Virus record (IMG/VR): IMGVR_UViG_3300025141_016305
Coordinates: 111,012 to 175,011 of that record
DNA from: a virus
DNA length: 64,000 nucleotides
Reading direction: 5' to 3' (one strand)
Shown: one piece after another, positions 6,507-51,619 of the stretch
Position numbering within the stretch: the first letter of the stretch is position 1
Layout of the letters: the number at the start of each line of letters is the position of its first letter
The notes under the pieces: generated by a model
Databases searched by the model: none
What the model was told of the DNA's origin: nothing
The model's input: the letters and a program-made list of their open reading frames with translations, nothing else
Translations under genes and position numbers: made by a program

Positions 6507-7478
6507 TTACATATTCTCCTTTATCTTTTTGAAATCACTCTCATACATAATTTTGGCTAATTTCTTAAATGTTACTTTTGGCTGCCAACCCAATACTCTT
6601 TTTGCCTTTGAACTATCGCCCAACAAAAGCGGTACTTCATGTGGTCTAAATAATCTTTCATCTATTTTAACATGCTTATCTACATCTAGGCCTGCTATAG
6701 TAAAAACTTCTTCCAAAAATTCTTTAACAGTATGTGTTTCCCCAGTTGAAATAACATAATCATCAGGGTATTTTTGTTGCAACATAAGCCACATTGCTTC
6801 AACATAGTCGCCGGCGAAACCCCAGTCACGTTTTGCTTCTAGGTTGCCCAAATATAAAGTATCCTGTAGGCCTAACTTGATCCTGGCTGCAGCAAGTGTT
6901 ATCTTTCTAGTCACAAATGTTTCCCCTCGTTTAGGAGATTCGTGATTAAACAAGATACCAGAAGAAGCATGCATTCCGTACCCGGTCCTATAATTATTCA
7001 CTAAATTATGAGCAAACAATTTTGCACATGCATATGGAGATGCCGGCTGGAACGCTGTCTTTTCTGATTGTGGCACTTCTGGATTATCTCCAAACATCTC
7101 AGACGATGAGGCTTGATAGAATTTGCAATTCGGCCGGAGTTCTCTTAGTGCATTTAAAATTTTTAATGTGCCCATCGCGATGCCGTCGACCGTATTTTCA
7201 GGTATATCGAAAGATACTCTAACGTGAGATTGTGCCGCAAGATTGTAGAATTCATCTGGCTTGTATTTATTGATTAATTTCCACACAGACCCTGCATCAT
7301 TTAGATCAAAAAACTCCATATGAAACCTGGGGTGACCGAAGACATGATCTACTCTTCCAGTGTTGAAAGAGGAGCTTCTTCTTTTGAGACCTATAACTCT
7401 ATATTTTTTATTCAATAAAAATTCGGCCAGATAGGCGCCGTCTTGGCCTGTGATTCCTGTGATCAATGCTGTTTTCAT
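6507..7478 (-). CDS. gmd: GDP-mannose 4,6-dehydratase
   Basis: 323 residues, an extended short-chain dehydrogenase that converts GDP-mannose to GDP-4-keto-6-deoxymannose, the precursor of GDP-fucose, rhamnose and perosamine. Visible are the NADP-binding TGITGQDG at residues 7-14, the [13 protein letters not shown] segment diagnostic of Gmd, SSSEMFG, and the YxxxK pair in SPYACAKLF. It is slightly short for the family (usually 340-370). A good SD (AAGGA) lies upstream. It is the last gene of the glycan locus. The only GDP-fucose synthase sequence in the window is a 57-residue remnant at 35404-35577. Confidence 0.93.
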
Positions 7479-36660: not shown

Positions 36661-36737
36661 TGGTGGGCCTCCGCGGACTTGAACCGCGAACCTGCCGGTT
36701 ATGAGCCGGATGCTCTAACCTATTGAGCTAGAGGCCC
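36661..36737 (-). tRNA. tRNA with CAU anticodon, probable tRNA-Ile2
   Basis: A 77-base cloverleaf with encoded CCA: acceptor GGGCCTC/GAGGCCC, D-arm GCTC/GAGC, anticodon loop CTCATAA (CAT), T-arm CGCGG-TTCAAGT-CCGCG. A CAU anticodon can be Met, or Ile2 when C34 is lysidinylated. C4-G69 and C5-G68, which are known TilS recognition pairs, are both present, and a tilS-like gene lies 21 bases upstream. This supports Ile2 (AUA decoding). The 27-43 pair (T-C) is mismatched. Confidence 0.92.
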
Positions 36738-36743
36738 GATACT

Positions 36744-36751
36744 TATTTATA
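36744..36751 (-). promoter_or_regulatory. T4-type late promoter TATAAATA before the tRNA
   Basis: A perfect TATAAATA on the minus strand ends 6 bases before the tRNA 5' end (36737). T4-like gp55 sigma recognises this consensus, and a gp55-like gene is at 5044-5739. The spacing would put the transcript start at about the tRNA's first base. Confidence 0.45.
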
Positions 36752-36758
36752 CCAAACA

Positions 36759-37361
36759 TTACTTATAAATTTCAATTAATTTTTTTCTAATTGTTGTCCT
36801 CAGCCCGGGATTGACCACTAATACTTGAGGTAAAATATTTATTCTTGTATGATTTCTCATAAAATTTAAATGAGAATTAGAAGGGTCTTGAATCCAAGAA
36901 ACTTTTTTTTTAATTGCATAATCTTTTATCGTTTTTTTATTTGTCATCAAAAACGGTCTAAAAATATTCTCACCTCTTTTATAGGGTATTAGACGGCCAT
37001 GGCCATGCAAACTTGACATAATCCAAGTTTCTACGCAATCATCGAGGTGATGACAAGTAATAATAAACCTACTACCAAGATTGTTGAGGAAATCATATCT
37101 TTCGTCTCTCCAAAACTCTTCTAAAGAACGCTTGCCTTTAACTCCATTGACCCTACCAATAATTAGTTCTAGTTTATTCTCATTTGCATAGTTTTCAACA
37201 AATTCTTGAGCTTTTTGCGAATGATTCGTGTCATGATTAAAGTAAGCTAATTTTATTCTTCTTTTTCCCTGCTTGAGAAAATGAGCGAAAACCATCGAAT
37301 CAATGCCGCCAGAACATGCAATAGTTACATTTCTAGGGATTTTTCCAATTATACGTATCAT
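36759..37361 (-). CDS. tilS: TilS-like tRNA(Ile)-lysidine synthetase
   Basis: 200 residues, the PP-loop ATPase domain alone. ACSGGIDSM at residues 15-23 is the P-loop, CHHLDDCVETWI is the HxxDDxxET motif, and DPSN followed by RNHTRINILPQV is the diagnostic TilS ending. The enzyme converts C34 to lysidine so that CAU reads AUA and is charged with Ile. The C-terminal domains of longer TilS proteins are absent. The CAU tRNA lies immediately downstream on the same strand. Confidence 0.87.
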   Translation of the reverse strand: MIRIIGKIPRNVTIACSGGIDSMVFAHFLKQGKRRIKLAYFNHDTNHSQKAQEFVENYANENKLELIIGRVNGVKGKRSLEEFWRDERYDFLNNLGSRFIITCHHLDDCVETWIMSSLHGHGRLIPYKRGENIFRPFLMTNKKTIKDYAIKKKVSWIQDPSNSHLNFMRNHTRINILPQVLVVNPGLRTTIRKKLIEIYK

Positions 37362-38638: not shown

Positions 38639-38978
<340 letters not shown>

Positions 38979-41976: not shown

Positions 41977-42641
41977 CCCAGCACTCCGGGGGCCATCAAA
42001 CATGCCATTTCAAAATCATCCCAATAATCTATTTCCACTGCTTCTTTTTTCGAAACTCTAAATTTAAATGGATTAGTTCCCATCCAGTATTTAACTTCTC
42101 TTTGTTTTTTTACACTAGCTGTATATGCTGCTCCGGTTATTTGATCCCAAGATGGTAATTCCTGTGTAAAATTATGCCAGGGCCCTGGATTAAAATTGAT
42201 GCATCTTCCCTTTTCGTCCAATAAAAAATCGTTATAAGGTACAGTTGTTACAACACTATCTTTCGTATTTTTATCAATCACTTCCTTTTCATAAGCTTCT
42301 ATAATTTGGTCATATCTAGTAAAAAACGGATTTGTTACCATCGCCCATGTAATAATATCCTCTTCAGAAAAATGTGATATAATATCTAAAATATATTCAT
42401 GAAGGCGTGCGTCATTACACATGTAGTCGCTTCTCGAAATAAAACTTATGTTATTCTGCTCAGCTATAAGCCTTGCTTTAGAACTGTTACTTGCCACTAC
42501 GATATCGTCGACTTTGGTGCATGATTTAAGTTGTTCTATTTTAAGATTAAGTAAAGACTTGTCCTTATGAAAGTTTCTAAAATTCTTATTTTTAACCCTT
42601 GTTGAACCCTCTCTTACAGGAATTACTGCAATGTGTTTCAT
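41973..42641 (-). CDS. Acylneuraminate-type cytidylyltransferase
   Basis: 222 residues. AVIPVREGSTRVKNKNFRNF is the CTP-binding signature, with Thr for Ser/Lys at one position. VVASNSSKARLIAEQNNISF and a C-terminal VSKKEAVEIDYWDDFEMA (the EAxxIDxxxD motif) complete the fold. It is only distantly related to 9600-10244. It would activate an acidic product with CTP. ATGA overlap with the GAPDH-like gene. Confidence 0.83.
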   Translation of the reverse strand: MKHIAVIPVREGSTRVKNKNFRNFHKDKSLLNLKIEQLKSCTKVDDIVVASNSSKARLIAEQNNISFISRSDYMCNDARLHEYILDIISHFSEEDIITWAMVTNPFFTRYDQIIEAYEKEVIDKNTKDSVVTTVPYNDFLLDEKGRCINFNPGPWHNFTQELPSWDQITGAAYTASVKKQREVKYWMGTNPFKFRVSKKEAVEIDYWDDFEMACLMAPGVLG

Positions 42642-43669
42642 GTTATATCCAACTTTTGGTAGAGAGATATTTGATCCACAACTCTACTAGCATACCCGAA
42701 TTCATTGTCATACCACAAAACCAATTTTAAAACATTTCCCTTAGTTTCTGTCCAGCGATGATCAATATGGCAAGAATAAGGAGACTTAATAAAATCTGTT
42801 GAAACCAGAGGTTCAATATCGTTTTTAAAAATTTTACAAGTTTGTTCACTCTCCGCATCTAAAAAGATTTCTTTAATTTCTTTCTTATCAACGGTTTTCT
42901 CTAAAATAATTGTAAGGTCCGCTGATCCAACAATGGCATGGGGTGTTCTATAGGAAAAAACCAACAACTTATCCTCAATACCTGTTAAAACTCGGTTTGT
43001 TGCAACTAAAGCTGTCGTCCATTTGGGAATAATATTATTAGAACTGGAGCGGCCTAGGGCATAGTTATGATAAGTTTGTTTCGGATTAGATTGATATTTT
43101 GATTGTCCATCTAAAACGTTCTGATAATTTAGCCATGGATGAACAGTAGTGATGCTGCCACCAGAGATACCAAAAGAATTATCTAATCTCTTTAGTACCG
43201 GGGCGAGAGCCGTAGTATCGCAAATACTACATGAAACCACCTTATGACATTTATCTGCAAACTTTTCGTTAACACCCAAAACTAATTCAAAATCAGAAAT
43301 TGAACTTGAGTTAGTTATATAAACCCTTTTTACTCCCCACTTTTGTATAACCTGAGGTGCTGAACTTATATTTCTTCCTATTCCAGATGCATCAATAACA
43401 TAATCTGTGTTGCTCCAATCTACGTTTTCTATTTTCGATTCACAAAAAACTTTAATCTCATGACCATTTAAAACTAGTTTATCGTTGGCGGTGCATTCGA
43501 CATGGCCCTGAAAGCGACCATATAAAGAATCATACTTTATTGTATATTCAATATTCCTAACATCAAAATTTATATCATTGATAGTGGTAATTTGAAAGTT
43601 ATTATTATTGGCCAAGATTCTTAATATTTGGCGGCCGATGCGGCCAACGCCGTTGATACCAATTTTCAT
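42638..43669 (-). CDS. GAPDH/erythrose-4-phosphate dehydrogenase-like
   Basis: 343 residues. INGVGRIGRQILR is the NAD site, SCSICDTTALAP contains the catalytic Cys in place of the usual SCTTNCLAP, TVHPWLNYQNVLDG keeps the general-base His, and a C-terminal WYDNEFGYASRV matches the family. The altered active-site neighbours suggest a different aldehyde-phosphate substrate. It is the first gene of the cassette. A gapA paralogue in a phage is unusual. Confidence 0.85.
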   Translation of the reverse strand: MKIGINGVGRIGRQILRILANNNNFQITTINDINFDVRNIEYTIKYDSLYGRFQGHVECTANDKLVLNGHEIKVFCESKIENVDWSNTDYVIDASGIGRNISSAPQVIQKWGVKRVYITNSSSISDFELVLGVNEKFADKCHKVVSCSICDTTALAPVLKRLDNSFGISGGSITTVHPWLNYQNVLDGQSKYQSNPKQTYHNYALGRSSSNNIIPKWTTALVATNRVLTGIEDKLLVFSYRTPHAIVGSADLTIILEKTVDKKEIKEIFLDAESEQTCKIFKNDIEPLVSTDFIKSPYSCHIDHRWTETKGNVLKLVLWYDNEFGYASRVVDQISLYQKLDIT

Positions 43670-50611: not shown

Positions 50612-51619
50612 TTAAATGAACTCTTTATCGCCCGAAAACATGATTTCTATATCCGGGGTGATCTCTGTTTGAATTTTGGTTGTTAGCCAGAACTCCATGT
50701 CTGCTCTATTTTTGAATTGGTATAAGCTTGGTCCATCGAACGCGCACCAACTATCAACTTGTTCCAAAACATCCATTTTATTAAAAACAATATTATTTAT
50801 TCCGTTGATCCTCGAAGCCATTTTTAACATGTCAAAATCTAACCAGTTTATTTGCCGGGGCCGCCCGGTTGTGGAACCGAACTCTTCTCCAGCCTCTCTG
50901 ATATCTTCAAAAATAGGATCCTCTCCTTCGAATTTCTTGGCGCCAACATATGTTTCATAAATTTTAGCCACACCCCAAACATCTCTTATCGCTTTTGGGG
51001 GGACGCCATTTAAAATAGCAGAACCAACCGTACAGTGTGAGGAGGTAACATAAGGGTAATCGCCCCAATCAACATCTAGGCCAAATCCCTGTGCACCCTC
51101 AAATAGTATTTCTAATTCATCTGGATCATTATCTTCATAAAGTTCTTCGTACAAGTTAATTAAAAATTTCTGTAATCTTGGATCTTCAAATGCGCGCACT
51201 CCACGTCGCGCGTATTTATCCCTATAAGCGGGCCCGTTACCTCTTTTGGTTGTTCCTATTTCTTCATCTTTCTTGTCTTCTGCTCTGTGAAAATCCGTAA
51301 TAATATGAGCATTGGTGGATACAAATATTAAACCTTCTGTTGATATTCCGTTTTCTTCTAATTCTTCAATTTCTTTTAGGAATGTATCGACGTGGATTAC
51401 ACACCCAGGCCCAATAACTGATTTTATTCCATAAAAAACACCACAAGGAATATGGTGCGTTACAAACTTCTTACCATCATGAAAGATAGTATGCCCAGCA
51501 TTGCACCCTCCATTATATCTTATTACATGTGTATAATTATTGCCGCTACAAAGAGCGTGCGCAATCTTACCTTTTCCGCAGTCTCCATATTGCAAATCCA
51601 CAACAACATCAGCAATCAT
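50612..51619 (-). CDS. purA: Adenylosuccinate synthetase-like (PurA)
   Basis: 335 residues, short like archaeal and phage PurA. YGDCGKGKI (D13, C14) aligns with the catalytic GDEGKGK loop, NAGHT (H43) is the general acid, GNGPAYRDKYARRGVR and STTGRPRQINW match the IMP and GTP regions. The Asp that PurZ enzymes replace is retained, so the substrate is probably IMP, giving AMP for DNA synthesis. Strong SD AAAGGAG. Confidence 0.87.
   Translation of the reverse strand: MIADVVVDLQYGDCGKGKIAHALCSGNNYTHVIRYNGGCNAGHTIFHDGKKFVTHHIPCGVFYGIKSVIGPGCVIHVDTFLKEIEELEENGISTEGLIFVSTNAHIITDFHRAEDKKDEEIGTTKRGNGPAYRDKYARRGVRAFEDPRLQKFLINLYEELYEDNDPDELEILFEGAQGFGLDVDWGDYPYVTSSHCTVGSAILNGVPPKAIRDVWGVAKIYETYVGAKKFEGEDPIFEDIREAGEEFGSTTGRPRQINWLDFDMLKMASRINGINNIVFNKMDVLEQVDSWCAFDGPSLYQFKNRADMEFWLTTKIQTEITPDIEIMFSGDKEFI

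Follow-up and report, generated by a model that had tools for sequence, protein, structure and literature searches.

We report a contiguous and conserved pair of phage genes, in which a tRNA-Ile2 gene with a CAU anticodon follows a gene for a tRNA(Ile) lysidine synthetase (TilS) that comprises the catalytic N-domain only. Lysidine at C34 of a CAU tRNA shifts its reading from AUG to AUA (Ile), and the two genes, as judged from their sequences, are likely to form a compact AUA-decoding cassette. Phage TilS, phage tRNA-Ile2 and the AUA argument (made for chloroviruses) have been published already; the conserved contiguous pair, the minimal enzyme in such a setting and the contrast in codon usage described below are new.

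The phage, its tRNA-Ile2 and its minimal TilS

The window analyzed here (64,000 nt) corresponds to positions 111012-175011 of a viral contig of 175,011 bases, which has a GC content of 38.8% and carries nearly all of its genes on the minus strand. Matches to PHROG families (tail sheath, portal, major head protein, terminase, UvsX and DnaB-like genes) identify the contig as a distant T4-type myovirus, in agreement with the phage context assumed in a preliminary description of this DNA. As a lead to the host, the closest cultured terminase, that of Flavobacterium phage immuto, reaches only 44% identity, and an exact-match search with the tRNA core returned Ile2-like tRNAs of Clostridia only and was not informative. 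A phage tmRNA, a ribosome-rescue RNA (window 38669-38978, minus strand; Rfam tmRNA score of 127 bits; tag ANDDIEIFEDFALAA), lies 1.3 kb upstream of tilS, and in eight related loci (L012, L013, L017, L018, L026, L045, L055 and L062) a tmRNA is found 1.6-7.9 kb upstream of tilS. The starts of three putative host-like metabolic genes in the window (42638-43669, 50612-51619 and 6507-7478) resemble, by eye, GAPDH, adenylosuccinate synthetase and GDP-mannose dehydratase.

The tRNA, the only one on this contig, matches the Rfam tRNA family (RF00005) at 67.9 bits and is labeled Met by ARAGORN, from its anticodon. Its anticodon loop is CTCATAA, and its acceptor stem (GGGCCTC/GAGGCCC, followed by A73) has a paired G1-C72, so that it is not an initiator. 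In an isotype comparison with E. coli references only, it showed 82% identity to tRNA-Ile2 versus 68% to elongator tRNA-Met (metT/metU), and among the tRNAs of E. coli genomes it is matched best by one annotated as tRNA-Ile; the sequence thus places it, as had been proposed, with the Ile2 type rather than with Met.

The acceptor pairs C4-G69 and C5-G68 are established determinants for E. coli TilS. Both are present in the phage tRNA, as the preliminary description had pointed out, and among the 27 loci compared (23 distinct sequences) C4-G69 is kept in all and C5-G68 in 26, with pairs 3:70, 6:67 and 7:66 varying. This pattern would fit selection on TilS determinants without being proof of it, because pairs 1:72 and 2:71 are likewise invariant. 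Nor does it prove recognition by the phage enzyme, since known TilS contact the tRNA, acceptor stem included, via C-terminal domains (PMC12514573), and these are absent here.

The identification of the upstream neighbor as a TilS PP-loop domain was confirmed. The 200-aa protein is matched by PF01171 (Pfam), scores 125.5 bits against NCBIfam TIGR02432 (TilS-N; cut-off 93.6) and carries the motifs SGGIDS (17-22), HHLDDCVET (104-112), DPSN (159-162) and RN (169-170), with D21, S22, D108, E111, D159, N162, R169 and R173 invariant across 30 viral and 23 bacterial sequences. An AlphaFold model built from 14 sequences (mean pLDDT 84.4) has Aquifex aeolicus TilS (1wy5, 2e21 and 2e89; query TM 0.81-0.84) at the top of its PDB matches. 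The gene is under purifying selection (median dN/dS of about 0.12 among related sequences, whose synonymous sites are mostly saturated).

The phage protein shares with the Aquifex enzyme (about 30% identity) the N-domain fold, the PP-loop and the catalytic motifs. Unlike that 317-residue protein, which continues into a C-terminal tRNA-binding domain, it stops after the N-domain and the following helix. All 30 compared viral TilS are 195-206 aa long; in the 146 Bacillota genomes with an above-cut-off match, the best match sits in an open frame of at least 310 aa. A split enzyme with a separately encoded C-domain was considered and rejected, as no TilS C-domain (PF09179, PF11734) was found elsewhere on the contig. 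Type I TilS carries CTD1 and CTD2 and type II CTD1, both of which bind tRNA; having neither, the phage protein is, as far as its sequence tells, a TilS by its catalytic domain and belongs to neither type.

The missing C-terminal domains, together with the label given by ARAGORN, would fit an elongator tRNA-Met standing next to an inactive or repurposed PP-loop protein. Given the closer match to tRNA-Ile2, the retention of C4-G69 and C5-G68, the invariant catalytic residues and the low dN/dS, we regard this explanation as very improbable.

A tree whose bacterial sampling was limited (Bacillota, three Gammaproteobacteria, Prevotella, Fusobacterium and two plasmid sequences) places every viral TilS on the same side of a long branch (support 100%). 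A scan of genome contigs for the closest cellular TilS yielded no relative, and plasmid records gave TilS matches at about 28-32% identity only. TilS matches in "phage" records of Listeria, Enterococcus, Staphylococcus and Acinetobacter were discarded, as they seem to be pieces of bacterial chromosome (checked for Acinetobacter, which has an accA-tilS neighborhood).

Table 1. Features of the tilS-tRNA locus (positions in the window)
Feature	Position	Strand	Basis
tRNA-Ile2 gene, anticodon CAU (36701-36703), CCA encoded	36661..36737	-	ARAGORN, Rfam RF00005, E. coli best match, acceptor pairs
Spacer from tilS stop to tRNA, 21 nt	36738..36758	-	sequence, gene coordinates
tilS, encoding a putative tRNA(Ile) lysidine synthetase of 200 aa (catalytic N-domain alone)	36759..37361	-	PF01171, TIGR02432, PDB 1wy5/2e89 (sequence and fold), invariant catalytic motifs
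PP-loop SGGIDS codons of tilS, ATP-binding	37296..37313	-	sequence; S17, G18, G19, D21 and S22 invariant in 30 viral TilS

Linkage of tilS and tRNA across relatives

Two scans of IMG/VR for TilS relatives gave 17 and 34 loci, many of them found in both. Within the clade of the window, a CAU tRNA lies behind tilS in 21 out of 21 distinct related contigs (TilS identity 58-76%), in agreement with the earlier suggestion that the tRNA is paired with a TilS of its own. The gap measures 9-25 nt in 20 of them and 633 nt in the remaining one (L037), where an ORF has been inserted. Fourteen of the 21 have no other tRNA on the contig, several contigs being fragments. For a single tRNA to adjoin a given gene among about 220, the estimated probability is near 1% per genome and, with the pair kept in 21 contigs, the adjacency exceeds chance.

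Downstream of the tRNA the gene content is largely conserved in the clade, and upstream of tilS it turns over; in some contigs, the window among them (with a cupin gene), additional genes follow the tRNA immediately. The persistence of the tRNA behind tilS despite this upstream turnover supports a cassette, as do the survival of the linkage in L037 and the occurrence of the pair in the other order in a distant 332-kb phage (L057, 47% TilS identity), where the tRNA precedes tilS by 88 nt and has a tRNA-Leu next to it. The ORF inserted in L037 (6604-7236) belongs to a family of 184-190-aa proteins with no assigned function, members of which stand just behind the tRNA in L015, L018 and L019; these two placements are suggestive of an insertion slot at the tilS-tRNA site.

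For more distant viral TilS (L058-L061, L177-L195) no CAU tRNA was found in the stretch examined, and in L192 and L197 one is located about 500 nt downstream of tilS, within a large tRNA array. The tight linkage is therefore a trait of the clade and one relative, adjacency is unnecessary for a viral TilS, and a general tie of all viral TilS to a tRNA was rejected. Viral TilS lacking a tRNA neighbor would fit an enzyme that acts mainly on host tRNA-Ile2 or for host viability, next to which a tRNA is incidental, and maintenance of host viability is what the authors of the MIJ3 study propose (PMC6892783). On the other hand, the adjacency in our clade has outlasted the saturation of synonymous sites, the upstream turnover and the insertion in L037, which makes such a role of the pair's TilS quite unlikely.

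A different explanation would be that host tRNA-Ile2 is destroyed or depleted in infection (e.g. by an anti-phage anticodon nuclease) and that the phage restores both the tRNA and its maturation enzyme, codon supply being secondary. The presence of a sole tRNA in most clade contigs fits one targeted tRNA equally well, and the nearby tmRNA would be in keeping with it. We nevertheless consider it unlikely, as no such nuclease is known for the host and the difference in AUA usage between phages with and without TilS is more directly explained by decoding.

AUA codons in phages with and without TilS

The expectation that AUA would be frequent in this phage was correct (27.7 per 1000 codons in the whole 175 kb), but the codon is not over-used: AUA makes up 39.7% of Ile codons versus 38.6% expected from four-fold sites, with an observed/expected ratio of 1.02-1.03. 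Since base composition explains the frequency, over-use of AUA was rejected as a proof of the module.

The same ratio was compared among phages. It amounts to 1.13 in TilS-bearing relatives, 1.24 in MIJ3 and 1.14 in two TilS-bearing phages of 635-642 kb, versus 0.39 in phiKZ, 0.33 in PhiPA3, 0.24 in 201phi2-1, 0.30 in ZZ1, 0.43 in the T4 late region and 0.29 in P-TIM40, six large phages with no detectable TilS and a strong avoidance of AUA; immuto, also without a TilS match, shows a mild avoidance (0.78). The values of the two groups are fully separated (P 0.003 by rank test), in a contrast that draws on few independent lineages, mostly partial genomes and differing hosts, with the absence of TilS inferred from sequence search. 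Host codon usage is a confounder, because immuto uses AUA without a TilS match. The most telling comparison is that of phiKZ, PhiPA3 and MIJ3, which share one host species, P. aeruginosa.

Even in the TilS-bearing clade AUA is not favored. It is avoided in the major capsid gene, with 17 out of 435 Ile codons (3.9%, against an expected 24.5%), and is scarce in UvsX (12.9%, against an expected 33%); in the terminase it is used freely, at 48.7% of Ile codons. As the capsid gene is the one expected to be most expressed, its avoidance of AUA suggests that the codon is still costly there. Nearly AUA-free capsid genes are seen in L008 (16275-18020) and its relatives L114-L131, AUA elsewhere accounting for 40-50% of Ile codons, and the AUA-poor replication genes comprise UvsX, a Pol III alpha-like and an SbcCD-like gene.

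Proposed working of the pair and its known counterparts

In the scheme that we favor, the mini-TilS would turn C34 of the phage tRNA-Ile2(CAU) into lysidine at the expense of ATP and lysine, and would probably modify host tRNA-Ile2 as well; host IleRS would charge the lysidine-bearing tRNA with Ile, and the tRNA would then read AUA. Owing to the phage's own TilS, the extra tRNA-Ile2 made in infection would not outrun the host enzyme, and without enough TilS it would remain a Met-accepting CAU tRNA. Both genes together would permit free use of AUA across most of the phage's genes. We infer that they are co-transcribed (no terminator-like site was found in the 21-nt spacer, which is weak evidence) and that the enzyme is active, specific and of benefit in infection. 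The module is self-contained, as had been suggested, insofar as the tRNA and TilS are both on the phage, but IleRS and the other tRNAs must be the host's.

The absence of CTD1 and CTD2, by which known TilS discriminate tRNA-Ile2 from tRNA-Met (PMC12514573), counts against a cassette. It is possible, though we hold this with more doubt than confidence, that the stand-alone catalytic TilS is specific for, or dedicated to, its co-encoded tRNA, the two being a co-evolved enzyme-substrate pair that discriminates Ile2 from Met without these domains and frees most clade genes from AUA avoidance.

The suggestion that no phage pair of this kind had been described stands for the contiguous arrangement, of which no description was found in the open-access literature, but its parts have been published for MIJ3/PA5oct, RsoM2USA, T4-like phages and chloroviruses. 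For Pseudomonas phages MIJ3 and PA5oct, a 2019 paper presented TilS as new to phages and without assigned function (PMC6892783); this enzyme is likewise confined to the N-domain (203 aa, 44% identity). MIJ3 also has an Ile2-like tRNA-CAU (175311-175387) which, unlike that of the window, lies about 9 kb from tilS in a group of 12 tRNAs, is annotated as Met and was not linked to TilS by the authors (PMC6892783). By annotation, MIJ3 encodes a second tRNA-anticodon modifying enzyme, TadA (L170 30483-30962; LR588166.1 90482-90961).

Ralstonia phage RsoM2USA encodes TilS plus many tRNAs, but its enzyme has 349 aa as opposed to 200, no Ile tRNA is given among its 43 canonical tRNAs and TilS is not tied to a CAU tRNA (PMC8504454). 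For chloroviruses, which unlike our phage infect green algae, the part of the source drawn on here explains viral TilS by an AUA use that is high relative to the host and describes no adjacent tRNA-TilS pair (PMC7589089). A lysidine-type tRNA-Ile occurs in T4-like phages (PMC1524935). Like the window phage, T4-like phages and phiKZ carry a tRNA-Ile2(CAU) (identity to E. coli Ile2 of 77% for ZZ1 and 90% for phiKZ); unlike it, they have no detected TilS, and modification is left to the host. A 104-aa ORF of immuto (L167 22262-22576; MW353175.1) is annotated as TiaS, the tRNA(Ile2) agmatinyltransferase, probably in error; if the annotation is right, this phage of bacteria would have a further enzyme for AUA decoding.

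The pair may explain how such phages use AUA freely, and, with a single tRNA accompanied by the one enzyme it needs, it is a natural experiment from which to learn what phages have tRNAs for. The jumbo phages of P. aeruginosa (phiKZ and PhiPA3 without TilS, MIJ3 with it) bear on whether TilS lifts the cost of AUA, and the missing C-terminal domains raise the central question of TilS specificity, namely how a minimal enzyme would tell tRNA-Ile2 from tRNA-Met.
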